Below, one piece after another: positions 14,239 to 39,133 of a stretch of DNA of 39,184 bases. The notes beneath the pieces were generated by a model, which saw nothing but the letters and a program-made list of their open reading frames with translations, did not search any database and was not told the origin of the DNA. Within the stretch, counting starts at the first letter, position 1. Each line of letters opens with the position of its first letter. The DNA comes from Desulforudis sp. (GTDB taxonomy: Bacteria; Bacillota; Desulfotomaculia; Desulfotomaculales; Desulforudaceae): NCBI GenBank assembly GCA_019084485.1, contig JAHRFU010000008.1, positions 1 to 39,184 of the forward strand, written 5' to 3'. The position numbers and the translations under genes were made by a program.

Positions 14239-14295
14239 TTGGTGCGGCAGAGAGGAGTTGAACCTCCACACCCTTACGGGCACTAGAGCCTGAGT
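14239..14295 (-). repeat. attL: displaced 3' half of tRNA-Leu
   Basis: 57 bp matching 39047-39103 with one mismatch (G14257 versus T39065), including CCA, acceptor 3' strand, T arm, variable arm and part of the anticodon arm. The match stops after CTAGAGCCTGAGT. It represents the original chromosomal tRNA end, pushed aside when the element supplied a new one. Positions 14296-14600 to its right hold no gene. They contain the dyad TGACC-GATATC-TGGTCA (14313-14330), a GAAGCCTT/AAGGCTTC hairpin near 14357-14379, an arm-type repeat and a promoter. Confidence 0.9.
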
Positions 14296-16031: not shown

Positions 16032-16724
16032 ATGTCCCAAACCCCAGTAGGGTGCTCTGCTCAACACCCTTCATACCCTCTTATAGATAAGTATACCACA
16101 AAAGCCAAAACTTCTCAACTCCCCGACTTCTTTGAATCAGCGCGAGAAGTACCCATTACTGATCTTCTTCAACGATATTCACACGTAGAGCTAAAACAGA
16201 GAGGTAACAATCTATGGGGGAGATGCCCCTTTCACGAAGAGAAGACAGCTTCATTCAAAATAGATCCCCACAAAGGCGTATTCTACTGTTTTGGATGCCA
16301 CGCTGCGGGTGATGGTATCACATTGACATCATTGCTCTTAGATTGTTCTTTGATCGAAGCAGCCAAAATAATTTGTGATGATTTCAACTTAATCCCTTCA
16401 CCCATCTATCATCCCCATGCAAGCACAAGAAACACAGCAAGTGAAAGACGTGCCGGAAAAGACATAGCAAAACAAAAAATCCGGGATGCTCGCTTGTACG
16501 TTATTGCGCTGCAAGAAGCCATACAAGAGAAACTAAAGTTTTGTGAATATCAAAACAGCAATCTTGGCATGTTAGATTGCTTGCTTGACGAACTACGATG
16601 GGAGCTAACAGACAACAATGAAGACGTTCGACTAAACGCAGCAATGGAGGTGAGCAATCTTTGGACTCGGTGGCAGAAACTATGCAAGAACTCGAAACAT
16701 GCAACTTTGGTGAAGGACCACTAA
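16032..16724 (+). CDS. CHC2 zinc-finger protein (primase zinc-binding domain)
   Basis: 230 residues. The N-terminal third has the DnaG-type zinc-binding domain: CPFH (C65, H68) and CFGCH (C86, C89), with the usual SFKIDPHKGVFYCFGC context. No TOPRIM catalytic domain follows, so it is probably a primer-site recognition or loading protein rather than a full primase. The C-terminal part is helical and unassigned. The ATG at 16032 follows GAGGTGATG. It overlaps the RepA-like gene by 64 bp, and the two are likely partners in element replication. Confidence 0.8.
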   Translation: MSQTPVGCSAQHPSYPLIDKYTTKAKTSQLPDFFESAREVPITDLLQRYSHVELKQRGNNLWGRCPFHEEKTASFKIDPHKGVFYCFGCHAAGDGITLTSLLLDCSLIEAAKIICDDFNLIPSPIYHPHASTRNTASERRAGKDIAKQKIRDARLYVIALQEAIQEKLKFCEYQNSNLGMLDCLLDELRWELTDNNEDVRLNAAMEVSNLWTRWQKLCKNSKHATLVKDH

Positions 16725-17761
16725 ACATTGAAAGATTAGTGGGCATACAAAGCCAACCCCAGCAAAACGGTGCAATCATACAATGTTTGGCTGACGTGAA
16801 ACCGCAAAAAGTAGAATTTCTATGGGACCCATATCTCCCAAGGGATAAGTTGATTCTTGTCGAGGGCAATCCAGGTGATGGAAAAACTTACTTTAGCCTT
16901 GCGTTAATGTCTGGCATAACTAGAGGATTCCTTCCGGGTGTAAACGGTCAATTATCACCAATTACCCCACAAAACTGCCTCTACATAGGTATAGAAGATG
17001 GTATCGGAGACACAATACGCCCCCGGCTTGATGCTACGGGCGCTGATGTCAGTAAGATATTCACAATGACAGGCACAAAAGTAGCCGGCGAAATAGTCCC
17101 CTGGTCATTTGATGACATAAAGACCCTCGATGAAACAATGTCTCGAATACAACCAGCGTTGGTTGTCATTGACCCGCTACAGGGTTTTATCGGATCACAT
17201 GTGGATTTGTATAGGGCAAATGAAACCCGGCCTAAAATGGCTGCCCTTGCACAGTTAGCAGAGAAACACCATGCCGCAATAATGATCATCCGACATCTAA
17301 GTAAGTCGGGAAATCAAGCCCTGTACCGCGGCCTCGGATCAATTGACTTTACGGCAGTGGCACGGAGTGTTCTGCTCATCGGCAAAGAGGATGATTCAGA
17401 ACTGCGGGTTATGATTCACTTGAAATCCAGTTGCGCTCCTGCTGGACCGACACAAGCCTTTGTTTTAAGCAACACTGGGTTTGCGTGGGCGGGGACAACG
17501 GCCACTACCGCCGATGATCTACTGTTCACTGAAAAGAAGAAACCTGGCGAAACCAAACTTGACCGGGCGATGGACTGGCTTGAAGACTTTTTGGCCGATG
17601 GACCAAAGACCAAACAAGAAGTCGATAAAGCAGCACGGCGAAAGGGGATCAACGTAAGAACCCTGCGAACCGCAAAAGAGAAGCTTAAAGTTAAATCATG
17701 CAAGCGACCAGGTGAACAGCACAGTCCTTGGGTCTGGAGACTACCCGATGAAGAAGAGTAA
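16661..17761 (+). CDS. RecA-fold ATPase of the RepA/AAA_25 helicase type
   Basis: 366 residues. Walker A VEGNPGDGKT (about residues 66-75), Walker B ALVVIDPLQG (about 164-173) and HLSKSG (about 212) match hexameric RepA-like helicases of plasmids and phages. The C-terminal 90 residues (DGPKTKQEVDKAARRKGINVRTLRTAKEKL) form a winged-helix-like DNA-binding domain. The TTG at 16661 lies 8 nt after GGAGGTGAG, inside the preceding gene. Together with the CHC2 protein it probably opens and primes the origin-like region immediately downstream. Confidence 0.85.
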   Translation: MDSVAETMQELETCNFGEGPLNIERLVGIQSQPQQNGAIIQCLADVKPQKVEFLWDPYLPRDKLILVEGNPGDGKTYFSLALMSGITRGFLPGVNGQLSPITPQNCLYIGIEDGIGDTIRPRLDATGADVSKIFTMTGTKVAGEIVPWSFDDIKTLDETMSRIQPALVVIDPLQGFIGSHVDLYRANETRPKMAALAQLAEKHHAAIMIIRHLSKSGNQALYRGLGSIDFTAVARSVLLIGKEDDSELRVMIHLKSSCAPAGPTQAFVLSNTGFAWAGTTATTADDLLFTEKKKPGETKLDRAMDWLEDFLADGPKTKQEVDKAARRKGINVRTLRTAKEKLKVKSCKRPGEQHSPWVWRLPDEEE

Positions 17762-18957: not shown

Positions 18958-19063
18958 GTGCAAGCTGTGCGGTAGGCCACTAAAGGACGAACAGCACAGA
19001 TTTTGCTTTGTTTGCGGAATCATTACTCAACACAAAAAGGAGGAGGCAAAACATGTCAGATGA
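18944..19063 (+). CDS. 39-residue zinc-ribbon microprotein
   Basis: A GTG at 18944 after GATGAGGA opens a short frame reading MNCIKCKLCGRPLKDEQHR, then FCFVCG. Two CxxC-type knuckles are separated by about 12 residues, a compact zinc ribbon. It overlaps the preceding gene by 14 bp and the following gene by 11 bp, as in tightly packed phage-like operons. Too short for routine gene finders. Confidence 0.5.
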   Translation: MNCIKCKLCGRPLKDEQHRFCFVCGIITQHKKEEAKHVR

Positions 19064-19490
19064 ATTAGAAACCGTGATTGATGAAAAGGAGACTATCCAA
19101 TCTCAACGAGAGGCAATGACCCAGCAGTTCAAGAAGATAGACTATGAGCTTGAGCTTGCCGAGCGGGAAGCAGAGCGAAAGCTCGATAAACTACTGAACA
19201 TAGCAAAACCCGAACCCCCGACACTGACCGCAAAAGAAGAAAAGGAACTCGCTACGATCGTAAAGACATTCAAGGACAAAGAGCGACAACTCGAAGGCAT
19301 GCTTGAACCAATGGAAGCTTTGGTTAGGGAAATGAAAGGATTGGTCGCAAGGTCTGATCAATTAACCAACGGAAAAACATGTAAGGTGTCGTGCCTAGAC
19401 AGGGTCTCATTTTCGAACTACGTTCGGCATGGGTTTCCTAGCACGGTCGCCGGTATTTATGGCAGGGTGATCATCAGAGGATGCAATTAA
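19053..19490 (+). CDS. Coiled-coil protein, unknown
   Basis: 145 residues. Residues 1-110 are highly charged and predicted to be one or two long helices (IDEKETIQSQREAMTQQFKK, ELELAEREAERKLDKLL). The C-terminus (YVRHGFPSTVAGIYGRVIIR) is different in character. The ATG at 19053 lies after AGGAGGAGG. No family recognised; the position resembles that of small scaffold-like or regulatory proteins. Confidence 0.6.
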   Translation: MSDELETVIDEKETIQSQREAMTQQFKKIDYELELAEREAERKLDKLLNIAKPEPPTLTAKEEKELATIVKTFKDKERQLEGMLEPMEALVREMKGLVARSDQLTNGKTCKVSCLDRVSFSNYVRHGFPSTVAGIYGRVIIRGCN

Positions 19491-20124: not shown

Positions 20125-20592
20125 GTGAAAAGCAAGGAACCAATTGTCGAGGTCTTACCCGCTAAAGTGCATCCCAGGGAAGGGAAACCGGCCTCGAATG
20201 CACACCCTCCAGAGGTCATTGAAGAAGCTATTGAGATGCTCTGCTACCATCCGGTGGCTGAGGTAGCACGTAAGCTAGGTATTTCTCGAACGGTCCTCAT
20301 GGGGTGGCGGGGTAGACATGCGTTGGGGATCAATTCTACGAGAGCTTACCTCCTATCCGATAAGCTAGACACCGTAATTCAGGATACTCTTGACCGGATC
20401 AGCGGAGACAAGCTAGATGGCAGTTCGGCACACAGCCTGGCGATTATCGCCGGAATCCTTACTGACAAGAAAGTCGCACTTCTCGGCCCCCAGAAGAACG
20501 CACAAGGAAATTTCAGGGCAAGGGTGGTATGGAAGGGTGCTGGCGGCTCTGCAATGGCTCTAGAGGTAGGTTCGGGCGGCAATGTCGAGTAG
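20125..20592 (+). CDS. Helix-turn-helix protein, terminase-small-subunit-like
   Basis: 155 residues. Residues about 30-62 (EVIEEAIEMLCYHPVAEVAR, KLGISRTVLMGWRGRH) form a helix-turn-helix resembling phage small terminase subunits or homeodomain-like regulators. A helical middle (DKLDTVIQDTLDRISG) and a polar C-terminus follow. The GTG at 20125 follows AAAGGAG. Without a large terminase nearby the packaging role is doubtful; it may bind the structured region upstream. Confidence 0.55.
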   Translation: MKSKEPIVEVLPAKVHPREGKPASNAHPPEVIEEAIEMLCYHPVAEVARKLGISRTVLMGWRGRHALGINSTRAYLLSDKLDTVIQDTLDRISGDKLDGSSAHSLAIIAGILTDKKVALLGPQKNAQGNFRARVVWKGAGGSAMALEVGSGGNVE

Positions 20593-20779: not shown

Positions 20780-23245
20780 TTGACAAACCCCACAATCCCA
20801 CAAGTCATGGCTAGTTTAGGACTGGACTATTCTCCTGCCCTTCAAGCCAGTGAGTATTTCCGAAGGGATGCAGCAAGGACGAACGCTACGCTAATCGAAA
20901 TGCGGCAACAGTCACTACTCACATCCCAGGCAATGAAGCAACACTTCGGACTTCCCGCAAAGGATCTTCAATCTCTCAATACCACAGCTAGAGACCTAGG
21001 CCGTTCCATGGAGAAAACCACGGGCAGACAGGTAGCAGATGCCTCTCGTGCTCGAACAGACGCCTTTAAGCGTGAATCTCTCGCTGTTCAGGATCTTGCA
21101 CAGAAGCAGTACCACTTGTCTCAGCAGCTATCGCACAGAATGGGCTGGTTCCTAGGTGGGGCTATTTTCTACGGAGGCATTCAAACCTTCGGTAGCATGG
21201 CCGGTGCTATCCGTGACGTTGAGCTCGGAATGGTGCAAATCAAAAAGGTGATGAACGATGCCTCTGCCGACTTCGATAAGCTCCAACAGCAGTTGATAGA
21301 TATGGCTGTTCAATATGGCGTATCTGTGCAGGACACGTTGGAGGTCGCTACCTTGTGGGCCAGAGCCGGGTATCGCACTCACGAGATTTTGGACTTGGTT
21401 AAGACGTCTCTTCTGGGAATCTCGGTGGCCGAGCTTTCCGCAAACGACAGTGTGAGACTTCTAATCAGTGGCCTTAAACAGTTCAATATGACTGCTGATG
21501 AGTCTCACAAAATCCTGGATGCCGTCAACGAAATTTCGAACAATTTCAGCGTTAACGCAAAAGATCTGCTGGAGGCTTTAAGCGTCTCAGGCCAGGTTGC
21601 AAAAAATGCTGGAATCGACTTCCATACTTTGTTGGGGTACATCACAAGTTTAAGCGAGGCCACGGGCAGAGCGGGTCGGGAGCTTGGAAATAGTGTAAAA
21701 AGTATCATTGCTTTCAGCCAGAGACCCAAGGCAATCGAGGTCTTCGAGCAATTAGGTGTCCATGTGGTTGATGCAAAAGGCTACTACCGGGACTTCACGG
21801 ATGTGTTCACTGAACTCTCGGAGAAATGGACAGGCGCATCCATTGCACAGCAGGAACAGTTACACAAGCTGGCAGAGGAAATGGGTCTTGTCATTGAAAA
21901 GACCTCCGAGCTAACGGACGTGGAGAAGACCAATGTTTCTGCCGCAGCAGCCAACATGTTTCGCCGAAACATGTTCGTATCCCTCATGGAGAATTACACT
22001 ACAGCCTTAAACGCTACTGAAACCGGGATGCGTTCTGCCGGTAGTGCTGAACAGGAAATGTCTATGTTCATGGAGTCTGCCTACAAGAAAACCGAACAGC
22101 TAAAGGCAAGCATGACCGCCTTAGCGGTGGAAATCGGTCAAGCCGGTCTGTTAGCCGCTATGAAAGGCGTAACTGACGAAACAAGGTATTGGGTTGAGTC
22201 GTTCACCAAACTTCCAGAACCAGTGAAAACTTCAGTTATCGTTTTCGGTGAGCTAACAATGGCTATAGCGCTTGCTAACCTTGCCAGTAGGACGTTTGTT
22301 GGCATCGGTATGGCTGGAGCACTGAAGTCCTGGGCGGCGGCTGCTACAGGCGCACAGGTCGCGACAATGGGGTTAGGAACGGCCCTTAGCGTATTGGCCA
22401 GGAACCCAATCTTCCTAACCGTTACTGGAATCACGGTTCTTGTCGGTGCCCTACGAGCTTACAACAAATCCAGCGAACAGAATGTTCAGAAGACCATCGA
22501 GAGTATGCAAGCTCACCAGATGGCTGCTGAGCAGTTTAAAGCTCAGAAAGAGCAGATTGAAAAACTTGCACACCAGTATGGGGTATTAAGCCAGAAGACA
22601 GAATTGAGCGCGAGTGAACAGGAACGGCTTAACTCTGTAATGGCCGAGATTGCCAGTACTCTGCCCGGTGCTATTGAAGGCTATGACCAGGCTGGAAATG
22701 TAGTGCTTAGTCTTGCGAATGTCACCCGTGTTGCAGCTAGTGAAACCGCACGACTAACCGCCGAAATGAAGGTTCAGGCTGAGGCTGCCGCTGAGATTGC
22801 TAAGGCAAGACTCCCCTTCCTCGAAGCAGAAAAGGCGGCGGCTGCTACAGAAGTCCTAAAGTATACTGAGGCGTTGCGTTCACCGTTCCCCAGAGGGGAG
22901 TTACTAGGGCTTGAACCTAGAGGCTATATGCAACTCTGGGAGACCCTAACCTTCACTGACGATAAGGCACGGCAGAGACTATCCGACCTCGCGCAGGATG
23001 CAAACCAGTCCTACGGTGAACTGAATAAGGCCGTTGCAGAGGCAAAGGCACAACTCCGAGCCGGTGAAGTAATGAAGGCGTTCAAATCTGAAGGTTTAAA
23101 GGTTAGTGGAGAAAGCTTAGATGGGTTTACTGCAAAAGACGTATTCAGTGGCAAGAGCAAGCCTGATAATTGGGCTACGGCATTCAGTGGCTCCTTGTGT
23201 ATTCTAGGGGCAATTATCATAATCAGCGAGGAGGTTATTCACTAA
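20780..23245 (+). CDS. Phage tail tape-measure-like protein (TP901 core)
   Basis: 821 residues. Residues about 115-370 carry the TP901-type core: LQQQLIDMAVQYGVSVQDTL, SANDSVRLLISGLKQFNMTA and SLSEATGRAGRELGNSVKSI are characteristic. Hydrophobic segments follow (about 480-555, including FLTVTGITVLVGALRAY), then a coiled-coil region. In phages this protein sets tail length and helps DNA entry. Here no other tail or head gene is present. Its last codons (GSLCILGAIIIISEEVIH) encode a hydrophobic tail, and the TAA overlaps the ATG of the next gene. A reused or remnant protein is likely. The TTG at 20780 lies 11 nt after AAGGAG. Confidence 0.75.
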   Translation: MTNPTIPQVMASLGLDYSPALQASEYFRRDAARTNATLIEMRQQSLLTSQAMKQHFGLPAKDLQSLNTTARDLGRSMEKTTGRQVADASRARTDAFKRESLAVQDLAQKQYHLSQQLSHRMGWFLGGAIFYGGIQTFGSMAGAIRDVELGMVQIKKVMNDASADFDKLQQQLIDMAVQYGVSVQDTLEVATLWARAGYRTHEILDLVKTSLLGISVAELSANDSVRLLISGLKQFNMTADESHKILDAVNEISNNFSVNAKDLLEALSVSGQVAKNAGIDFHTLLGYITSLSEATGRAGRELGNSVKSIIAFSQRPKAIEVFEQLGVHVVDAKGYYRDFTDVFTELSEKWTGASIAQQEQLHKLAEEMGLVIEKTSELTDVEKTNVSAAAANMFRRNMFVSLMENYTTALNATETGMRSAGSAEQEMSMFMESAYKKTEQLKASMTALAVEIGQAGLLAAMKGVTDETRYWVESFTKLPEPVKTSVIVFGELTMAIALANLASRTFVGIGMAGALKSWAAAATGAQVATMGLGTALSVLARNPIFLTVTGITVLVGALRAYNKSSEQNVQKTIESMQAHQMAAEQFKAQKEQIEKLAHQYGVLSQKTELSASEQERLNSVMAEIASTLPGAIEGYDQAGNVVLSLANVTRVAASETARLTAEMKVQAEAAAEIAKARLPFLEAEKAAAATEVLKYTEALRSPFPRGELLGLEPRGYMQLWETLTFTDDKARQRLSDLAQDANQSYGELNKAVAEAKAQLRAGEVMKAFKSEGLKVSGESLDGFTAKDVFSGKSKPDNWATAFSGSLCILGAIIIISEEVIH

Positions 23246-24192
23246 TGACAATTGCAATGACCGTGGTTACTAAGCAGGGGATAGTGATGGGCAGTGAGAG
23301 TCGCACAATAGAGGTCGAGCGTGGTATGGAAGAGAATTACGGGGGAGATTTCAAGGTTGTATTAGACGATAACCAGAAGATACATCAGCTAACTGACAGG
23401 ATTGCCATTTGCACGAGTGGCTATGCGAGGGTAGGGGATTGGTGGCAGTCACATGAAATTGATGAACTGAAGAAGATGGCCCAAAACGGCGTTAAGATCA
23501 ATGAGTTAGCCAAGCACTACAACGGGAAGGTTTGTCAGGCATTGGAAAAGCACAACCTGAAACCGAAGTTTGGTTTTATCATAGCAGGGTATGAACACAA
23601 GTCATATCCCTGCGCGGTATGTTATGCTCACGGAAAAGAGGACTTCAAATTAGGTTTGACTGACCCCTCAACAGGGTCGTTTCAATCTGGAATGCATGTG
23701 ATCGGTAGGCTAGAAATCGTTAGGAAGCTACTGGCTGACGAAACCCCAGACTACAATAACCTTAGCATATTCGAGGTTGCCGGTTTTGTAGAATTGTGCA
23801 TTACGGCAGGCTACAAATTCCAACGGTATCTTGTTGGTCATCATGAGGAATCGGCTGGCCCGGTTAAACTGCTGGTTATGACACCTTGGTACTCGTTACC
23901 CACATTCCCGAAATTGGACACAGAACTTAACTTCCTCAGAAACGGCATATCCGAGTGCATCAATTGTGGCAGTCCAATGAGAGCCGTGAAGCAAATAAAG
24001 GTGGACGGTGAACACCTATTCTACCTTGCGAAGTGCGACTGTGCCAACTCCGATGTCTCAGTTATTGGCCCCAATAGTCCCCGCGTCAGGGAAGCAGACG
24101 ACATGAAAGTCATCGAACTCACCCTGCCGGAATACACCAAGAAAGCACTTGAGGAACACTTGTTATGCCGTAACGAGGATCAGGTCAGGTAA
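23245..24192 (+). CDS. Proteasome-like Ntn-hydrolase with C-terminal zinc ribbon
   Basis: 315 residues. The start MTIAMTVVTKQGIVMGSESR resembles beta-type proteasome subunits: Thr2 would be the N-terminal nucleophile after Met removal. Glu18-x-Arg20 sits at the Asp17-x-Arg19 spacing, and NQKIHQL (Lys45) followed by ICTSG matches the Lys33/strand region, with an insertion of about 11 residues. The C-terminus holds CINC and CDC cysteine groups (about residues 240-275), a zinc ribbon not usual for this family. The ATG at 23245 overlaps the tape-measure stop (TAATG) and has its own GAGGAGGT. Function unknown; peptidase or amidohydrolase activity is inferred only. Confidence 0.6.
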   Translation: MTIAMTVVTKQGIVMGSESRTIEVERGMEENYGGDFKVVLDDNQKIHQLTDRIAICTSGYARVGDWWQSHEIDELKKMAQNGVKINELAKHYNGKVCQALEKHNLKPKFGFIIAGYEHKSYPCAVCYAHGKEDFKLGLTDPSTGSFQSGMHVIGRLEIVRKLLADETPDYNNLSIFEVAGFVELCITAGYKFQRYLVGHHEESAGPVKLLVMTPWYSLPTFPKLDTELNFLRNGISECINCGSPMRAVKQIKVDGEHLFYLAKCDCANSDVSVIGPNSPRVREADDMKVIELTLPEYTKKALEEHLLCRNEDQVR

Positions 24193-25567: not shown

Positions 25568-26467
25568 CTATATCCCAATGTTAATGAAATCCGTGGAACC
25601 CTTCTGTAATTGGTTTGCGGAGTGCAGATACCTTTGCGTGGTGGTCAGCGAACTGTGCCCTAAGTCCTTCTGAACCTGAAGAAGATCAGCACCGTTAGCC
25701 AGGGCCAAGGTAGCTGCCGAGTGCCGTAACCAGTGGGGGGAAACGTCCTTCTTAATCCCTGCATCCTTGGCGCATTCGGTGATAAGGCGGCGAACATACA
25801 CATCTGACATTGCCTTACCGTTCCGATTGGCAAATAAGGGCCGGTCATCCTGGTTATCAATCTCTATAGGCAGACCCTTCAGCGTCTGGTACTCACAAAT
25901 GGCATTCCACAAGTCGGAGCGAACTTTGATAGTCCTGAGCTTCTGTCCTTTACCGATAACCCGAAGTCCCGTGTTGTCGTGAAGATCCTTGAAGAAGTCC
26001 CCCCACTTGATGCCGACCAGTTCAGCTATTCTAAGGCCGGTCAAAACCAAGAAGCCAACTGCAAGGTAAGCGGTGGGGTTCTTACACTTGCTGGTAGCCA
26101 ATAAAGCCTTCAGTTCAGACCGGGTGAGGAACCGCTGCTCACTTGTTACATTTACCTTGGGAACTTCTAATACTTCAGCCACATTGAACCGGGTGTAGCC
26201 AATCCGAAAAGCAAACTTGAAGAGGCTGCGAATAGTAGTTAATGCCCTGGCTTGGGAGGCAGGGGCAAGGTATTCAAGGGAGTCCGCGAAGGCTTGAAGG
26301 TCTGACAGTGTTACCATTCTAAGTGGCTTGCCAACGAAGTCCAGGAACCGGCGGATCTCAACACCGTAAACCCGTGCAGTATTCAAGCTACGGCGCGACT
26401 TGTTGCTGAGGAACATTTCCACGACCTGAGAATCATTAGTTTCAACCACTTCAACTAGGTTGGTCAT
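25568..26467 (-). CDS. Tyrosine recombinase (XerC/D-like integrase)
   Basis: 299 residues with an N-terminal SAM-like core-binding domain (RSLNTARVYGVEIRRFLDFV) and a catalytic domain showing TGLRIAEL (Arg), HWLRHSAATLALANG (His-x-x-Arg) and LGHSSLTTTQRYLH (His and Tyr). It is closer in style to XerC/D or invertase-type recombinases than to the tRNA-proximal integrase. The ATG at 26467 lies 8 nt after GGAGGAATT. It is divergent from an XRE regulator. It could resolve multimers, drive an inversion, or mark a nested element. Confidence 0.85.
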   Translation of the reverse strand: MTNLVEVVETNDSQVVEMFLSNKSRRSLNTARVYGVEIRRFLDFVGKPLRMVTLSDLQAFADSLEYLAPASQARALTTIRSLFKFAFRIGYTRFNVAEVLEVPKVNVTSEQRFLTRSELKALLATSKCKNPTAYLAVGFLVLTGLRIAELVGIKWGDFFKDLHDNTGLRVIGKGQKLRTIKVRSDLWNAICEYQTLKGLPIEIDNQDDRPLFANRNGKAMSDVYVRRLITECAKDAGIKKDVSPHWLRHSAATLALANGADLLQVQKDLGHSSLTTTQRYLHSANQLQKGSTDFINIGI

Positions 26468-26642
26468 CGGAATTCCTCCTCTCTTTGAACCCATTATAGA
26501 TCCGATAGTTACCGTCTGTCAATAGAAAATTACAATAAACAATAATAAACTTTCCTCATGCCCCTATAGGCATACTTGTTGCGGGACAAAGAATATAGTA
26601 GGATGTAATAGGGTTACTGTATACCATAAAGGGGGTGACAGG

Positions 26643-28971: not shown

Positions 28972-29118
28972 CTGGGTGCACCTCCGCTACAATTATTTGA
29001 AGAGTGCCTATAACCTGTAGCTTGAAACCGGCCCCAGTTAAGAGATCTATGGGATGCTTGTCTGCCATTAGTAAACCTGATACATTCTAGTTATCCATTA
29101 GAATTGGGGTGGACATCA

Positions 29119-31104
29119 ATGTCTCGAAAGTTAAATGTCCAAGTCAGCAACGACCATATACAGAGGATGATTACAAATGTCGGAGCCTTGAGAGCACTAA
29201 AAGAATTGATCTGGAATGCTCTTGACGCGGATGCGACCATAATCAAGGTTTCATTTGTTCGCGGTGCTCTTGATGGCATTGAGGAAATCAGTGTCACAGA
29301 TAATGGGCACGGAATCTCTCACGATGACATTGATCATAAATTCGGCAAGCTCGGAGATTCACACAAAATTCGTGAATTCAAGAGTCCTGGTGGTCGGATG
29401 TACCACGGCAAACGCGGTGAAGGCAGGTACAAAGTGTTTAATCTCGGACATTTGGCAACATGGCGAAGTGTTTATTTGGGAATGTCTAATAATGCATTAG
29501 CTTTTACTATTGAAGGTAGCCGCTCCAACCCTTCAGAGGTTCTAGTTAGTGAACCGGCACCTTGCAGCGAGCAAACCGGCGTTCGGGTTTCGGTACTAGA
29601 TCCTATTGATAAAGTTGCACAGTTAGATAATCCCGACACTGTTATAGGGAAGCTGACAGAGGAGTTTGCCGCATACTTACTAGCCTATCCCGAAATTAGA
29701 ATAAGTGTGGATGGAGTAGCTATTAAGACCAGAGAAATCATTGATGAGTTTGTAGATTTAGACCTGAGATTTGTAACAGAAGAACAGGAATCTATAGAGG
29801 CTAAGGTAAGACTTATCATATGGAAGCGTGGCAACTTCCGAAACCGGTTTCTATGTAATTCTGAAGGTGTAGCGTATGCCTATGAACCGTCGAGGATAAG
29901 GCATGTGCCGTTCAATTACAGTATTTATATTCTAAGCAACTACATTGAACATATGGCAGGCAGTGCTGATCCTTCGGCATTTTTGTTACGTAATATGAAC
30001 CCGGTTCTAAGGGAGTTAGTACAAAGGGCCGAGAACGTTGTTCGTATCTATTTCAGGGAAAAGCTCGCTATTGAGGCCTCAGACACCATAAGAGATCTTA
30101 AGGATGAAGGGGTTTATCCTTATCAAGGCTCTCCGGCAAACGAGATAGATAACGCAAAGAGGCAAATATTTGACATATGTGCCGTTAAGATTCATCAATT
30201 CGATCCTAATTTCATTAAGTCACCTACTACATCAAAGCGGTTAACCCTTCGCCTCATTAAGGAGGCAATTGATCAGAACCCTACAACGCTGAAAAAGATT
30301 CTAACTGAGGTACTTAGCTTACCCGTTGATACACAGGAGGAGTTTGCCGATTTGCTTGAGCGAACATCGCTTAAGGCAATTGTGAACGCAGGCACTACTA
30401 TTGCCAATCGTCTGGATTTTCTAAGTGGATTGGAGCACATTCTTTTTAGTCCTGACTTCAGGAAAGGTCTAAGAGAGAGAAGTCAGCTACACAAGATACT
30501 GGTCAATGAACTATGGATTTTTGGAGAACAGTACGTCTTGGGGCAAGATGATGCCTCACTTAAAACTGTATTGAGAGAATATGTACGCTACTTAGGGCGT
30601 GAGGAGCTTGCAAAAGACATTCCCCCAGATGAGATGAAGGATCTAATCGATATACCGGACTTGTGTCTGTGGGCTAAATTACCAGTAGGTAAGCCAGGTC
30701 AGTTTTCTAACCTGGTAGTGGAGTTGAAACGACCTTTGCATACGCTTACTACTGATGATCTGGCCCAAATCGAAAAGTATGCTTTTGAAGTTGCCCAAAA
30801 CCCACGCTTCAGTCAAAACGGCTTAGAGTGGACTTTTGTGCTAGTTGGGAATTCTTTGAATGATACGCTTAAGTGGAAATGTAAATCATCTGACCGACCG
30901 TATGGATTGGTGGTCCAGACGGGTGCTGTAAATGTTTGGGTAAAAGAGTGGAGTGACATACTCCGGGAAACTAATTGGCGTTATCAATTCCTGAGGGATC
31001 AGCTAGAGTTAGTTGTTCAGGATAATGCTGAGGGAATGGCCTATTTATCGAAGAAGTACGGAGAGATTTTGAAGAGTAATCCCAAAACAAAAGACCTATA
31101 CTAA
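29119..31104 (+). CDS. GHKL ATPase fused to a PD-(D/E)XK-like nuclease domain
   Basis: 661 residues. The N-terminal GHKL fold (Hsp90/MutL/MORC type) shows the N-box ELIWNALDADA (E29, N33), G1 box DNGHG (61-65) and G2 GKRGEG (97-102). The middle is helical. The C-terminus has IPDLCLW (P513-D514) and LVVELKRP (E535-x-K537), the spacing of a PD-(D/E)XK nuclease, then QIEKYAFEV. Such ATPase-nuclease fusions occur in restriction-like and anti-phage systems. The ATG at 29119 lies 6 nt after GGGGTGG. It appears to be a single-gene system; no methylase is nearby. Confidence 0.7.
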   Translation: MSRKLNVQVSNDHIQRMITNVGALRALKELIWNALDADATIIKVSFVRGALDGIEEISVTDNGHGISHDDIDHKFGKLGDSHKIREFKSPGGRMYHGKRGEGRYKVFNLGHLATWRSVYLGMSNNALAFTIEGSRSNPSEVLVSEPAPCSEQTGVRVSVLDPIDKVAQLDNPDTVIGKLTEEFAAYLLAYPEIRISVDGVAIKTREIIDEFVDLDLRFVTEEQESIEAKVRLIIWKRGNFRNRFLCNSEGVAYAYEPSRIRHVPFNYSIYILSNYIEHMAGSADPSAFLLRNMNPVLRELVQRAENVVRIYFREKLAIEASDTIRDLKDEGVYPYQGSPANEIDNAKRQIFDICAVKIHQFDPNFIKSPTTSKRLTLRLIKEAIDQNPTTLKKILTEVLSLPVDTQEEFADLLERTSLKAIVNAGTTIANRLDFLSGLEHILFSPDFRKGLRERSQLHKILVNELWIFGEQYVLGQDDASLKTVLREYVRYLGREELAKDIPPDEMKDLIDIPDLCLWAKLPVGKPGQFSNLVVELKRPLHTLTTDDLAQIEKYAFEVAQNPRFSQNGLEWTFVLVGNSLNDTLKWKCKSSDRPYGLVVQTGAVNVWVKEWSDILRETNWRYQFLRDQLELVVQDNAEGMAYLSKKYGEILKSNPKTKDLY

Positions 31105-31406: not shown

Positions 31407-32621
31407 TTAGCTTTGTTCTATGAACTCATTGCAGTTCGTACAGAAGTCCTTATTATCCGTGTAGACGCCGCAACGAAGACACTCTGTCATTGTCTCTACA
31501 AAGCACTCAGGACAGTAGAAATCGGAATCCCAATCAGCTTCGGGTCGATACTGTACTGACAAAATCCCCTTCCGGTCGTACTCTCCAGCTTCCTCGTTCC
31601 AGGAAGACCCAAAGAAAGTCGGATGAATAATCCGACCACAGTTGACGCAATACTCAGCCTGAAGAAAACCGTAAATACGGTCTTCCACTTTTTGCTTGGC
31701 TACATCCTTCAGGTCGTAGAAGTCTGCTGTGACCATCAGTACTAATTGTTGTTCTGGCGTGAGTACAGAATCGATGCCTTGGTAAAACTTGAATACCTTA
31801 AAATGGTAGTCAACGATATCTTTCAAAAACTCTTGAACCCTGCGGTTTTCTAATAGTTTCGTTAGTTCGGCAACTGATTTGACCGAATAGTCGCGTAGTT
31901 CTTGTAGCAAGTAGGCTAGGTCCAGAGTCTCAGGTGTTCTAGCATCAGGCCATCTATCCTCAATAACTGCAAGTAAGGTTGCTTCCGTAAATGAATCATT
32001 CCTAGGATCTTGTGCTACTACGCGCTTAGCCATGCCGTCTCTAATTCCTTGAGACATCTTGTCAACTGCTTCAAGAATATCACCTATACGGGCCTGAAGG
32101 TCTGAAAGTAACTCATCCTTGTCGTCTGAACTATAAAAATCGTCATGACTTAGAACTGACCAAGTGTGCTGAGCTAGTGTTTTGACCTGGATTTCACATG
32201 GAAAGTCCATAGTAGTTCCATGGTATGTAACTTTTAGGTCAATATTTATGTGAATGGCCCGGTAACCACTTGGGTAATTCTTGCGTTCTACATGGCAGCC
32301 TTCAGTCTCCCAAATGCTCTTGATCTCCTCAGCATCGGAAAGGTTCTTGCACACGATACATATTCCAACAGTGTCGCCGACGACAGTCAGAATATCCTTT
32401 GTATTCCTCACACCCCTCTTAATGCCTTTTTCAAACAGACGTTGCGGACTCTTAATTCTACTGCTGATATGAACAACCTTCTTATCTTGGGATCTGAGAT
32501 TGTCCTGTAGAGACTGTACCATATAGCTATGCAGCCTTTGCTTAATCCTCTCAAATAAGCCCAAATGCTCTAGATACCAGGAATTGAAGTCTTTCTGATC
32601 CAATTCCTTCGTGCCCCCCAT
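31407..32621 (-). CDS. RelA/SpoT-domain nucleotide synthetase with C-terminal zinc ribbons
   Basis: 404 residues. Residues about 45-170 form a RelA/SpoT synthetase domain: SRIKSPQRLFEKG (ATP-site basic residues), GDTVGICIV (the catalytic Asp; the usual GxR arginine is Cys), GYRAIHINIDL (ring-stacking Tyr), and EIQVKTLAQHTWSVLSHDDFY (catalytic Glu). A helical region follows, then four CxxC pairs (CVNC, CPEC, CLRC, CTNC), likely two zinc ribbons. No hydrolase domain. It could make (p)ppGpp-type alarmones or, like toxSAS enzymes, pyrophosphorylate tRNA. The two-part design recalls the fused phage-sensing toxin CapRel. Start ATG 32621 has a weak site. Confidence 0.75.
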   Translation of the reverse strand: MGGTKELDQKDFNSWYLEHLGLFERIKQRLHSYMVQSLQDNLRSQDKKVVHISSRIKSPQRLFEKGIKRGVRNTKDILTVVGDTVGICIVCKNLSDAEEIKSIWETEGCHVERKNYPSGYRAIHINIDLKVTYHGTTMDFPCEIQVKTLAQHTWSVLSHDDFYSSDDKDELLSDLQARIGDILEAVDKMSQGIRDGMAKRVVAQDPRNDSFTEATLLAVIEDRWPDARTPETLDLAYLLQELRDYSVKSVAELTKLLENRRVQEFLKDIVDYHFKVFKFYQGIDSVLTPEQQLVLMVTADFYDLKDVAKQKVEDRIYGFLQAEYCVNCGRIIHPTFFGSSWNEEAGEYDRKGILSVQYRPEADWDSDFYCPECFVETMTECLRCGVYTDNKDFCTNCNEFIEQS

Positions 32622-32812: not shown

Positions 32813-33922
32813 GTGCAGAAGACCAATGCTCTCGGTGAGTCCTTTCAGTCAATACGTTATCTCTGGCGGCATAGAAAAGGGCAAGAAGTCCCGGCAGCAG
32901 TGCTTGACGTTCTGGACGCTCTTTACGCTGACAAAACCAAGCCTCTCTTGATACGCAAAATCAAGAAGGAAAACGGCTGGCGTTTAATTTTCAACATTCC
33001 TCCTGGGGTGTCTTTCAACGAACTCAAGAGAAAGCACGACTATTTCACCGATGCTACAAATGCCGTGGTGTTGTTCGAGAAAATCAACGGACACCTTCAC
33101 CTTGAGATGCAGACCGCAGAACTGAAAGATCATTATCCCTACGCATGGAACCCCGAACAATACCCCAAACTCCACTTACCGTTACCGGTAGGCTATACTC
33201 CTTCAGGTTTAGGTGTTGCTGACCTCGCCGCAATGCCACATCTCCTTATAGCCGGACATCCGGGGGCCGGTAAGTCAAACTATCTTCACACTGTTGTGGC
33301 TAGCCTCCTCCTGCTGCCCAAGCCGGTCTATGTTTGCGTGGTGGACTTCAAAAAGTTGGAGTTTGCCTACCTCAAACAACGAGCCTTGGTAGTCACGGAC
33401 ATGGAGAATGCCCGAAACCTTCTGACCGCATTAAACAGAGAGATGGATTCCCGACTTGATGCCCTGGAAAAGGCAGGGGTCGTCAAGATCCAGGACTTTC
33501 AGGGTGAGATGCCTTTCATCGTCCTCGTGATTGATGAACTCGCCGAGATGATAGACGAACACTGCCAAAGCCAACTAAACCGTATCCTCAGACTAAGCCG
33601 TGCTGCCGGTATCTGTGTGGTGTGTGCAACCCAAAGACCTTCTTCAACCATCTTTGCGAAGTTCGGCGACAGCAAAGCCATGTTCGCTGCCAACCTCTGC
33701 TTTAAAGTAAGAGACGAAATCAATTCGCGCATGGTGCTGGACAATGACCGAGCGGCACACCTCCCCCAAATCCCTGGAAGGGGGGTGTTCCAGTGGGAGG
33801 ACGAAACCGAAGTTCAATCAATGTTCCTACCAGTTAACCAGGCGAAAAAGATGCTTAGCAAAATTCAGTCCAGGCAGGTGAGCAGGCTTGAACGACAGGC
33901 AAAAAGGCTTCCACCGAGATAG
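32813..33922 (+). CDS. FtsK/SpoIIIE-type DNA translocase
   Basis: 369 residues. Walker A is AGHPGAGKS (about residues 146-154), Walker B FIVLVIDELAEM (about 235-246), then LSRAAGICVVCATQRPSS and RGVFQWEDE, typical of FtsK/TcpA/TraB-like DNA pumps. An N-terminal domain of about 130 residues precedes the motor; there are no membrane helices. It probably moves element DNA during transfer. The GTG at 32813 lies 5 nt after GGGGGTGA. An inverted repeat (ACTCTCT/AGAGAGT) surrounds the start region. Confidence 0.85.
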   Translation: MQKTNALGESFQSIRYLWRHRKGQEVPAAVLDVLDALYADKTKPLLIRKIKKENGWRLIFNIPPGVSFNELKRKHDYFTDATNAVVLFEKINGHLHLEMQTAELKDHYPYAWNPEQYPKLHLPLPVGYTPSGLGVADLAAMPHLLIAGHPGAGKSNYLHTVVASLLLLPKPVYVCVVDFKKLEFAYLKQRALVVTDMENARNLLTALNREMDSRLDALEKAGVVKIQDFQGEMPFIVLVIDELAEMIDEHCQSQLNRILRLSRAAGICVVCATQRPSSTIFAKFGDSKAMFAANLCFKVRDEINSRMVLDNDRAAHLPQIPGRGVFQWEDETEVQSMFLPVNQAKKMLSKIQSRQVSRLERQAKRLPPR

Positions 33923-34538
33923 GCGGATCATTGAAGAAGTAGAGCGGTGCCGGTGCCTAAACACCGAACAGATTCAAGCATTACTGTTTCCAATGCTATC
34001 GGGGAAGCGGAAATGTCAGATGAGAATGAAGCGGATTACCGACAGAGGCCGGTTGAAACGATGGAGATATGCCCTTGAGGAACCGTATGCCTACTATTCG
34101 GACTTGAATAACCGGGTGGAGCAACTTGAACACACCGTTCTGCTGAATTGGGTTTACGTCTGGCTAATTAAGAGGCTGAAGCCTTGGGAAAGACTACACT
34201 CCTTCTCCTATGAGGATGACTATGGTGTTCTCAGAACGGATGCTTTTGCTGCCGTGAAAAACACCGTCACCGGGGAATTTCGCTTCTGCTTCGTGGAGAT
34301 GGATCGAACTACAAGCAACCGCTTTGACAAAGTGAGACTCTACAATGACCTCTATGAATCTGAGGGTTATGCAGAGTCCTGGTGGGTGTCGTTAACCAGG
34401 CGATACCCGCCCATCATTATCGCCACAACGAACACCCGAAGGAAACGCAAAATTGAAGAGGCTGTCCAATCCGACAACAGGAACGGTCTGGAGTTTCAAG
34501 TCTATCTTGTGGATGCCCTCCGGCAGGAGGTGGTCTAG
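33888..34538 (+). CDS. Replication-relaxation family protein
   Basis: 216 residues. The N-terminal winged helix (EEVERCRCLNTEQIQALLFP, MRMKRITDRGRLKRW) and the middle block (DYGVLRTDAFAAVKNTVTGE, then FCFVEMDRTT) match the Replic_Relax family, found with plasmid and integrative-element transfer genes. The D...E-x-D arrangement resembles a restriction-nuclease-like fold and could be a nicking activity; this is inference. The TTG at 33888 lies inside the translocase gene (35-bp overlap), so the pair is coupled. Confidence 0.75.
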   Translation: MNDRQKGFHRDRRIIEEVERCRCLNTEQIQALLFPMLSGKRKCQMRMKRITDRGRLKRWRYALEEPYAYYSDLNNRVEQLEHTVLLNWVYVWLIKRLKPWERLHSFSYEDDYGVLRTDAFAAVKNTVTGEFRFCFVEMDRTTSNRFDKVRLYNDLYESEGYAESWWVSLTRRYPPIIIATTNTRRKRKIEEAVQSDNRNGLEFQVYLVDALRQEVV

Positions 34539-34763
34539 TTGGGCAATACCTTGGTGCAGGGTGTCCTGGTCGCAATAGTGGGGGTCATATCCTGTTACAC
34601 CGTTCGGGCTATGAGTGGCAAGGAACAATCTGATCTCATCAAGCTGGCAGTAATCTTAATCTTGTTGACCCTTGTGTTTCAGTCTTTGGGTGGCGTGATC
34701 GAGTGGTTCGCGGCGGCAGTCGCCCGAATCGAAAGCCGGTTTTCTTGGATTCCAAGATTCTAG
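34539..34763 (+). CDS. Small membrane protein of the transfer-like module
   Basis: 74 residues with two membrane helices separated by a polar MSGKEQSDLIK turn, a layout similar to SpoIIIAC/AD-type and conjugation channel subunits. The TTG at 34539 directly follows the previous stop, with GGAGG upstream inside that gene. Probably a channel or anchor partner of the FtsK-like protein. Confidence 0.6.
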   Translation: MGNTLVQGVLVAIVGVISCYTVRAMSGKEQSDLIKLAVILILLTLVFQSLGGVIEWFAAAVARIESRFSWIPRF

Positions 34764-34777
34764 AGGAGGGCTGAACG

Positions 34778-35101
34778 GTGAGGAAGGCTAGAAAGGCAAT
34801 GGGGGTCTGCTTGGGGCTACTCGGTACAGTGGCGGTCTGGCCGGGGTTGGCAGAAGCTACGACGTTTGGTCAGTTGGCTAGTGCTACATTTGGACTGGGT
34901 GGGCCAGGAGCGGCAATACTTCAACTGCTACTGATTTGCATCGTGGTCTGGTTCTCAATGTATATGGCTACCGCTCTGAACAATGGTCAGGCTGCGGCGT
35001 TGATCAAGGTTACTGGTACATTCACCTGCCTCAGCATCATCGTCGGGTTGGCATGGGGTTTGCTCAAATCAATCTGTGCCTTTGCCGGGATTACGTTTTA
35101 G
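34778..35101 (+). CDS. Small exported two-helix membrane protein (pilin- or channel-like)
   Basis: 107 residues. A signal peptide ends near GLAEA, then a Gly/Ala-rich segment (FGQLASATFGLGGPGAAI) and two hydrophobic helices (LLLICIVVWFSMYMATAL and TGTFTCLSIIVGLAWGLL). The size and layout recall VirB2/TrbC-like pilins or small channel proteins. The GTG at 34778 follows GAGGAGGG. Last gene of the module 32813-35101. Confidence 0.6.
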   Translation: MRKARKAMGVCLGLLGTVAVWPGLAEATTFGQLASATFGLGGPGAAILQLLLICIVVWFSMYMATALNNGQAAALIKVTGTFTCLSIIVGLAWGLLKSICAFAGITF

Positions 35102-37756: not shown

Positions 37757-38923
37757 ATGGCAAGTAAGATCAAAAAGCGAGTAGGGAAGACCGGCAAGGT
37801 CTCCTACCAGTTCACCGTAGACCTTGGAAAGGACATTGAGGGTAAGCGAAAGCAGAAGCTTGTAACCTGTGAAAGCCTGAGAGAAGCAAGACAAAAGCAG
37901 CGCGATATGGAGTCAGCGGTCAGTAATGGCACATTCTGTGACTGCAAAAAGATGAACCTGGCCGAGTACCTTAGATACTGGCTGGAGCAATACGCCAAGT
38001 CCAATGTAGAGCAGACTACCTATGGGCTATACAAACTGATAATCGATAAGCACCTAGTCCCCGCCATCGGAGCTATCCCCTTAGCAAAGCTTCAACCCGC
38101 TCACGTGCAGAAATACTACTCAGGTGCCCTTACCGGGGGGAGAAAGGATGGCAAGCATAAATTAGGTCGTTCTCTCTCGCCGACAACAGTCCTGCAGCAC
38201 CACAGGATACTTCACAAAGCCCTAGATTCAGCAGTCAAGTGGGAGATAGTATCCCGAAACGTTTGCGACGCTGTAGAGGCTCCGCGTAAGCAGAAGAAGC
38301 AAATGCAGGTCTTGACAGAGAAACAAGTGGAAGTCTTGCTCAGTTCTCTCAATGGTCACTACTTGTATATGCCGACCTACCTAGCCCTGGCGACAGGCAT
38401 GCGCAGGAATGAGATCTTAGCCTTAACGTGGGTAGACGTGAACCTCAAGGAGCGGACGCTAACAGTCCGACAGGCAGTGAAGAGTAGTCACGTTGAACAA
38501 GCCTATATAGGGCTTCCGAAGACAGAGAAGGGTAGACGGACAATCAACATTGCCCCTGAAGTGGTTAGGGAGTTCAAAAAACACAGCAAGGAACAGGCCA
38601 GGAATAAGCTTCAAGCCGGTGAGCTCTGGCAGGACAACAATCTAGTGTGCTGCCTGCAAAACGGACAAGCCATCGTTCCTTCGACCCTATCAACCTCATT
38701 TAGAAAAGTTGCAGAAAAGGCAGGACTGAAACTACGATTCCACGATCTGAGACACTCTTGTGCCTCTTTTCTGTTGAAGCTTGGTATCAACCCGAAGACC
38801 GTCCAAGAACTTCTAGGACACGAAAATATAGAAACAACCCTCGGTCTGTATTCACACCTTCTTCCAGGCGTTATGGATGAAGCAGCTTGTAAGCTAGCCA
38901 AGGCAGTTCTACCCACAAAGTGA
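37757..38923 (+). CDS. int: Tyrosine integrase of the element
   Basis: 388 residues with an N-terminal arm-binding domain (about 1-60), a SAM-like core-binding domain (60-165) and a catalytic domain: R216 (TGMRRNEIL), H329 and R332 (HDLRHSCASF), H355 (LGHEN) and the nucleophile Y365 (LYSH). It catalyses integration at tRNA-Leu(CAG). The ATG at 37757 lies 10 nt after AGGAGG; the ATG at 37748 is too close to the site. It lies next to its att site, as is usual. Confidence 0.92.
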   Translation: MASKIKKRVGKTGKVSYQFTVDLGKDIEGKRKQKLVTCESLREARQKQRDMESAVSNGTFCDCKKMNLAEYLRYWLEQYAKSNVEQTTYGLYKLIIDKHLVPAIGAIPLAKLQPAHVQKYYSGALTGGRKDGKHKLGRSLSPTTVLQHHRILHKALDSAVKWEIVSRNVCDAVEAPRKQKKQMQVLTEKQVEVLLSSLNGHYLYMPTYLALATGMRRNEILALTWVDVNLKERTLTVRQAVKSSHVEQAYIGLPKTEKGRRTINIAPEVVREFKKHSKEQARNKLQAGELWQDNNLVCCLQNGQAIVPSTLSTSFRKVAEKAGLKLRFHDLRHSCASFLLKLGINPKTVQELLGHENIETTLGLYSHLLPGVMDEAACKLAKAVLPTK

Positions 38924-39004: not shown

Positions 39005-39058
39005 GCAAACAAAAAGGCCCCCGATTCCGGGGAAGCCTTGATTTACTTGGTGCGGCAG
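39005..39058. repeat. Left arm of a 54-bp perfect inverted repeat around tRNA-Leu
   Basis: Exact reverse complement of 39127-39180. It includes the 7-bp acceptor stem and CCA of the tRNA plus 43 bp beyond. The tRNA's own acceptor pairing explains only the inner 7 bp. Confidence 0.85.
39011..39039 (-). terminator. Terminator of tRNA-Leu
   Basis: On the minus strand the sequence reads AAGGCTTCCCCGG-AATCGGGGGCC followed by TTTTT, a GC-rich hairpin and T tract 9 bp after the CCA. It is supplied by the element side of the junction. Confidence 0.8.
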
Positions 39059-39103
39059 AGAGGATTTGAACCTCCACACCCTTACGGGCACTAGAGCCTG
39101 AGT
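39047..39103 (-). repeat. attR: direct repeat shared with attL
   Basis: 57 bp matching 14239-14295 with one mismatch, forming the 3' half of the intact tRNA-Leu. The last 38 bp are identical, so crossover lies within the anticodon-arm to T-arm segment. Confidence 0.9.
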
Positions 39104-39133
39104 CTAGCGCGTCTGCCATTCCGCCACTGCCGC
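39048..39133 (-). tRNA. tRNA-Leu(CAG)
   Basis: 86 nt on the minus strand, beginning GCGGCAGTGGCGGAATGG and ending CTGCCGCACCA with encoded CCA. The anticodon stem CTAGA/TCTAG encloses the loop CTCAGGC, giving the anticodon CAG. A long variable arm (TGCCCGTAAGGGTG) is typical of leucine tRNAs. The T arm is GAGGTTCAAATCCTC. The 5' half is chromosomal and the 3' half comes from the element. Confidence 0.93.

Follow-up and report, generated by a model that had tools for sequence, protein, structure and literature searches.

What is a relative of the proteasome doing on a bacterial mobile element, directly behind the gene for a phage tail tape measure? The question is raised by a 39,184-nucleotide stretch of DNA from Desulforudis sp. 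(contig JAHRFU010000008.1, positions 1 to 39,184; hereafter the window), in which the original prediction, made from the letters alone, had singled out an open reading frame (ORF) at 23245-24192 as a proteasome-like N-terminal nucleophile (Ntn) hydrolase with a zinc ribbon, carried by a mobile element and coupled to a tape-measure gene. The coordinates, frame and length of this ORF are correct, and Thr2, Glu18-Ser19-Arg20 and Lys45 can all be read in its product. Our comparisons show the window protein to be a homologue of proteasome-type Ntn-hydrolases whose predicted catalytic set is kept, and they place its gene in what is apparently a phage satellite. The features of the Ntn gene are as follows.

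23245..24192, forward strand: proteasome-like Ntn-hydrolase protein of 315 amino acids (aa), with putative nucleophile Thr2 (after loss of Met1), Glu18, Arg20 and Lys45
23230..23234, forward strand: ribosome-binding site GGAGG of the Ntn gene, recognised by sequence, within the end of the tape-measure gene
23956..24042, forward strand: codons of a putative zinc ribbon, Cys238-x2-Cys241 ... Cys264-x-Cys266, in this copy only

Searched alone against the Pfam Proteasome model, the window protein scores 16.8 bits, below the cut-off of 22.4, so that the search proposed with the original prediction stays sub-threshold for this copy and succeeds for a relative (L019, 25.2 bits). Single-sequence searches of PDB and a direct scan of the genome contigs with the window protein also gave no match. 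A search of 100 related genomes supplied three relatives, at 26-30% identity, and profile searches added more. A profile built from the window protein and nine relatives, Asp-type ones included, retrieved solved proteasome beta subunits from PDB (E 7.5e-8) with Thr2 aligned on their Thr1, while the window clade alone gave a profile that matched a proteasome alpha chain (E 2.6e-4, PDB). In profile-profile comparison, the satellite set matched a profile of the Firmicute phage proteins L019 and L052 over the whole domain with 99.1% probability. The predicted kinship with the proteasome is thus borne out.

The residues expected of such an enzyme are retained to a high degree. The first five members of the window clade all share Thr2, Glu18, Arg20, Lys45 and Ser58-Gly59 without variation, and this did not change when a sixth member, from another class, was added. 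Thr2 is therefore present in 6/6 clade members, and all other relatives have Thr or Ser in its place. The position of Asp17 is occupied by Glu18 in the window clade and by Asp in all other relatives, that of Arg19 by Arg in all but two distant ones, and that of Lys33 by Lys throughout. Loss of the Thr/Lys pair among homologues had been named in advance as the observation that would speak against an Ntn-hydrolase; the pair is kept, as Thr or Ser plus Lys, in 18/18 aligned sequences. The single insertion that had to be allowed in the alignment to proteasome subunits corresponds to a real loop of the window clade between Arg and Lys.

A maximum-likelihood tree places the window protein in a monophyletic Glu-type clade (support 99/96), on a long branch whose exact placement is unsure. 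The remaining satellite Ntn proteins form a separate Ser-Asp-type clade (support 100/100), which means that two Ntn lineages share one niche; the Ser-nucleophile lineage (MSIIASIILKDR..SDSR) occurs at L093, L095, L092 and L113 beside tape measure and fibre genes. Between sister pairs the ratio of nonsynonymous to synonymous substitution rates (dN/dS) is 0.07-0.17, indicating that the Ntn domain is kept by selection in the sister copies; no relative of the window copy is close enough for this comparison. Separately, another genome of the same genus (G001; L014 / L117) encodes a distant proteasome-like protein that stands alone (288 aa), outside any such satellite element and near genes that by eye appear to be DNA methyltransferase-like and Fic/DOC-like.

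Which element carries the gene? The window contains an insertion of 24.8 kb bounded by 57-bp repeats of the 3' end of a tRNA-Leu gene, and this attL/attR pair upholds the claim of a mobile element. Its main features are these.

14239..14295, no strand: attL, a 57-bp copy of the tRNA-Leu 3' end, 98% identical to 39047-39103
16032..16724, forward strand: DnaG-type zinc-binding primase protein (Pfam Zn_ribbon_DnaG E 1e-21; PHROG DNA primase)
16661..17761, forward strand: RepA/primase-helicase-like AAA ATPase (Pfam AAA_25 E 2e-23; PHROG DNA polymerase/primase E 1e-20)
19053..19490, forward strand: coiled-coil-like protein upstream of TerS, with weak coiled-coil matches only
20125..20592, forward strand: helix-turn-helix (HTH) protein, small terminase-like (TerS), homologues of which occur in all elements of the set
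20780..23245, forward strand: tape measure protein of 821 aa (Pfam PhageMin_Tail E 2e-29; PHROG tail length tape measure protein E 5e-87)
25568..26494, reverse strand: tyrosine recombinase 1 (Pfam Phage_integrase E 6e-29; PHROG integrase)
32813..33922, forward strand: FtsK/HerA-like ATPase (Pfam FtsK_SpoIIIE E 4e-22), also in the G196 element (copy E 3e-20)
37757..38923, forward strand: tyrosine integrase 2, adjoining attR and tRNA-Leu (Pfam Phage_integrase E 1e-28)
39047..39103, no strand: attR, within the intact tRNA-Leu(CAG) gene at 39048-39133 on the reverse strand

Capsid, portal and large terminase genes were not found among the larger ORFs of the window element that were scanned, a scan that did not take in every small ORF. 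Genes for a tail assembly chaperone or a baseplate hub were not recognised in the elements, in which small ORFs upstream of the tape measure have no assignment. The gene content points to a satellite resembling the phage-inducible chromosomal islands (PICIs), and the window element is apparently such a satellite, with a putative helper phage. It shares with PICIs and Staphylococcus aureus pathogenicity islands (SaPIs) the tRNA-type integration, the integrase, the primase, TerS, a size of 16-25 kb and the lack of capsid or portal genes, and it differs from them in that the elements described here carry tape measure and Ntn/fibre genes.

Three related elements have comparable ends, with repeats of 49 bp at a tRNA-Arg gene (G041, 19.1 kb), 59 bp at a tRNA-Leu gene (G060, 18.7 kb) and 67 bp at a tRNA-Sec gene (G196, 16.1 kb), the last in another class of bacteria.

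Several further observations concern the architecture of the window element. Two tyrosine integrases lie within one att pair (window 14239-39103), and the 24.8-kb insertion may therefore represent two tandem elements or one inside another. Its right half encodes a HATPase_c_3 protein (29104-31104, forward strand), which matches a PHROG of unknown function at E 7e-64 and, weakly, PADLOC REase_II, and a RelA/SpoT-domain protein (31407-32621, reverse strand; PADLOC PDC-S33 E 2.5e-9); both are possible defence cargo. The FtsK/HerA-like ATPase, of about 370 aa, is accompanied by small hydrophobic proteins both in the window (32813-35101, forward strand) and in G196 (L024 4917-7113, reverse strand), and this common group may serve in DNA transfer or packaging.

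How strict, then, is the coupling to the tape measure? The upstream gene is indeed a tape measure, as had been proposed, and its stop codon (TAA at 23243-23245) overlaps the start of the Ntn gene (ATG at 23245-23247) in the sequence TAATG. The overlap is real and proved peculiar to the window copy when the neighbours of the other Ntn genes were surveyed. The gene that lies upstream of the Ntn gene in the window, G041, G196 and G060 elements alike is the TerS-like one, and a homologue of it is present in every element carrying a window-clade Ntn gene. Direct matches of the window HTH protein to TerS families are weak (E 0.03); we call it TerS because its homologue in prophage L100 lies directly upstream of TerL, which is followed by the portal gene (PHROG E 9e-35 and 5e-55).

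Strong TerS loci (E below 1e-20) number 17 in 113 genomes of the class. The Ntn gene is found at 10 of them, five reach a contig edge too early, and two, a remnant (G013) and a full prophage (G090), have TerS without Ntn, so that the Ntn gene is present at 10/12 loci with readable flanks. The order TerS, tape measure, Ntn is seen in the window, in G060:C158 and in G104:C41, from Pelotomaculum sp. PtaB.Bin104 of the same order as the window genome (Desulfotomaculales), and a short contig, G075:C3, shows tape measure followed by Ntn. G041 has TerS, then Ntn fused to fibre, then the tape measure. TerS and Ntn with a fibre, and no tape measure seen, occur in G076:C23, G076:C34, G107:C130 (near-identical to G076:C23), G094:C14, G104:C112 and G196, while contig G104:C212 stops inside the Ntn gene. 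The Ntn gene thus follows a tape measure in four cases and precedes it in one, and in six no tape measure stands between TerS and Ntn. Linkage to the tape measure is recurrent, as had been suspected, but not universal, and homologues do not always follow one; the neighbour that stays the same is TerS-like.

The second recurrent partner of the Ntn domain is a fibre. Most sister Ntn proteins are fused to, or trailed by, a tail-like fibre: in G104:C112 a single polypeptide combines the domain with a PblB-like tail protein (PHROG tail protein E 1e-8; tblastn E 3e-15 to Enterococcus phage phiFL3A), in G041, G060 and G075 it is fused to a fibre-like region ending in a Cys-rich domain, and in G196 the product of the gene after Ntn is a structural protein of the virion (E 6e-36 to PHROG minor head). 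The fibre is absent from the window copy, and the small putative zinc ribbon occupies its place. The Cys motif of this ribbon is visible by eye, as the original prediction had noted; it is not a feature of the family and matches no zinc-finger family. We considered whether it is a shrunken version of the zinc domain that ends the sister fibre proteins: the alignment looked plausible, but its score is no better than that of shuffled tails, and we rejected this origin. Next to the fibre gene, a secreted protein is encoded on the opposite strand at four loci (L092 134-1060, L007 135-1061, L008 7490-8419 and L024 14499-15077); its 'DVAPYIKDNRTYTPVR'-type repeats resemble, by eye, the N-terminal (stalk) domains of copper amine oxidases, and it is possible cargo.

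We also looked for the wider family outside the satellites. No relative was found in named phages by tblastn; IMG/VR yielded one, on contig L059, and several other scans gave no match. Two more members occur in prophages L057 and L058, which are Paenibacillus-like as judged from gene content, and at all three places the gene lies between accessory or tail-like genes and terminase genes. In L057 (10093-11990) the Ntn gene is followed by genes that by eye are ParB-like and Mom-like, and then by the terminase genes.

Taking TerS, tape measure and fibre together, we favour the view that the Ntn domain is part of a phage satellite's tail module, and a protease for processing or assembly is our best guess for its role, held tentatively; a maturation protease was also among the roles that the original prediction had offered. 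Such a tail-module protein would probably make limited processing cuts, and it possibly serves as a ring-forming attachment domain too. Host methionine aminopeptidase would remove Met1 and expose Thr2; the Ntn domain would then assemble, probably as a ring like its relatives, and would either make a limited cut in a tail protein (tape measure or fibre) or be incorporated with it. The satellite would build its tail from its own and helper proteins, and the element would package itself with the particles of the helper phage. The window copy, which has no fibre, could do so only in trans, perhaps on the shortened tape measure next to it. A more specific version, which we regard as doubtful, is that satellites of one Desulfotomaculales lineage make chimeric tails in which tape measure and fibre are their own, the Ntn protease lying at the N-terminus of the fibre or adjacent to it and serving processing or assembly.

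Several points weigh against a processing or assembly protease. In the window protein Asp17 is replaced by Glu, and the second-shell Asp166 is not retained, the window clade having His, Pro or Gln three residues before the conserved Ser-x-Gly. Two AlphaFold2 models, made from shallow alignments of 3-4 sequences, reached a predicted local distance difference test (pLDDT) of 35 and 33, and the Ntn fold of the window protein, a four-layer alpha-beta-beta-alpha arrangement, is accordingly taken from homology. Six elements have the Ntn gene and no tape measure, and the tape measure therefore cannot be the sole substrate. The window tape measure is homologous to that of G041 (1,479 aa) over the N-terminal ~650 aa and is shorter at its C-terminus; together with the two integrases, this means that the window element may be decaying. 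Finally, the wider family in L057, L058 and L059 sits upstream of packaging genes, a site also used by moron and defence genes.

This last point leads to the alternative that survives best, although we consider it unlikely, namely that the Ntn protease attacks the tape measure or fibre of the helper or of a competing phage, which would favour the tail parts of the satellite itself or leave competitors tailless. Tai and similar tail-targeting defences exist in PICIs (PMC11364771), and the position of the wider family just upstream of the phage packaging module is the usual place of Tai genes. The Ntn proteins have no PADLOC match, however, and the defence sensor that the original prediction had offered as one possible role likewise found no direct support. 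The fusion of several sisters to fibre-like tail proteins is also more in keeping with a structural partner than with a defence enzyme acting freely.

That same fusion, in which the Ntn domain of G041, G104:C112, G060 and G075 precedes fibre-like domains, invites the question whether the domain is used for structure only, forming a ring or attaching to the baseplate at the N-terminal end of the satellite fibre, with catalysis secondary or lost. Proteasome-type domains form six- or sevenfold rings, and the exchange of Asp17 for Glu and the missing Asp166 would fit such a use. Against it, both satellite clades, which are under purifying selection, retain the nucleophile, acidic residue, Arg and Lys, and the domain stands at the extreme N-terminus with Thr or Ser at position 2, as catalysis requires; we think a purely structural role quite unlikely.

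Could the enzyme instead travel with the virion, as a fibre-carried amidase or peptidase that cuts a surface polymer or the S-layer at adsorption? Ntn enzymes cleave many types of amide bond, the sister domains are fused to PblB-like tail proteins, and the family gene of one Paenibacillus-like prophage is found a short way downstream of a gene for a lipase-like protein. The domain, however, occupies the N-terminal end of the fibre protein, which normally faces the particle, and the window copy has no fibre at all, which makes an envelope enzyme improbable. Hardly likely, too, is an ordinary decaying prophage remnant, its leftover tail genes and moron lacking a working satellite life cycle: the shortened tape measure, missing fibre and two integrases of the window would agree with it, as would the absence of a PF04860 portal gene, a sign of a helper prophage, from the same genome (other portal families were not searched), but separate elements with att ends, inserted at three different tRNA genes and spread over two classes, share the compact gene set, and the sister Ntn genes are under purifying selection, which speaks against decay of the family and, with less force, of the window copy.

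A processing or assembly protease in a satellite tail module can be set against what has been described before. Fuchs, Alva and Lupas (2021) reported 22 new uncharacterised families of proteasome homologues without informative gene context, among them Firmicute Cluster 4 (FC4), whose C-terminal domains resemble phage tail proteins (PMC8665760). Our proteins share with FC4 their occurrence in Firmicutes, the proteasome-like N-terminal domain and, in the sisters from G041, G104, G060 and G075, the tail-like C-termini. The window protein itself ends in a putative zinc ribbon where FC4 has a tail domain, and whereas no suggestive context was reported for FC4, the copies described here stand in tRNA-integrated satellite-like elements beside TerS and tape measure. 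Compared by description only, the sister proteins fit FC4, and the protein family is thus essentially known. PPH and AAH proteasome homologues also occur in phages (PMC8665760) and are likewise phage-associated proteasome-type Ntn domains, but PPH has ~140 residues and belongs, like AAH, to group I, while the window clade has ~220 residues and a profile nearer to the Firmicute phage proteins L019 and L052. HslV has a similar N-terminal Thr, Asp/Glu and Lys; we rejected membership in that family, to which profile-profile comparison gave no significant match (hhalign probability 0.5%). No gene for an HslU partner was seen among the element genes examined, and the host's own HslV is encoded on a separate contig (G000:C107).

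Satellites that bring their own tape measure are known in the phage-inducible chromosomal island-like elements (PLEs) of Vibrio cholerae, which make chimeric tails, and putative tape measures have also been noted in capsid-forming PICIs (cf-PICIs) (2026; PMC12987554). PLEs have a tail assembly chaperone and some of them a baseplate hub, and the portion of the account that we draw on here reports no Ntn gene in them (PMC12987554). The elements described here, unlike PLEs, carry TerS and Ntn/fibre genes.

The larger result here is a strict context for one such clade of proteasome homologues: its genes lie after a TerS-like gene, beside or fused with tail genes, in tRNA-integrated elements. This context makes the role of tail-ended proteasome homologues directly testable, with a short list of substrates. 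If the Ntn domain does act in building satellite tails, it would be, to our knowledge, the first case of a proteasome homologue that takes part in virion morphogenesis. The elements also add a Firmicute lineage to the recent finding of satellites with their own tape measures.

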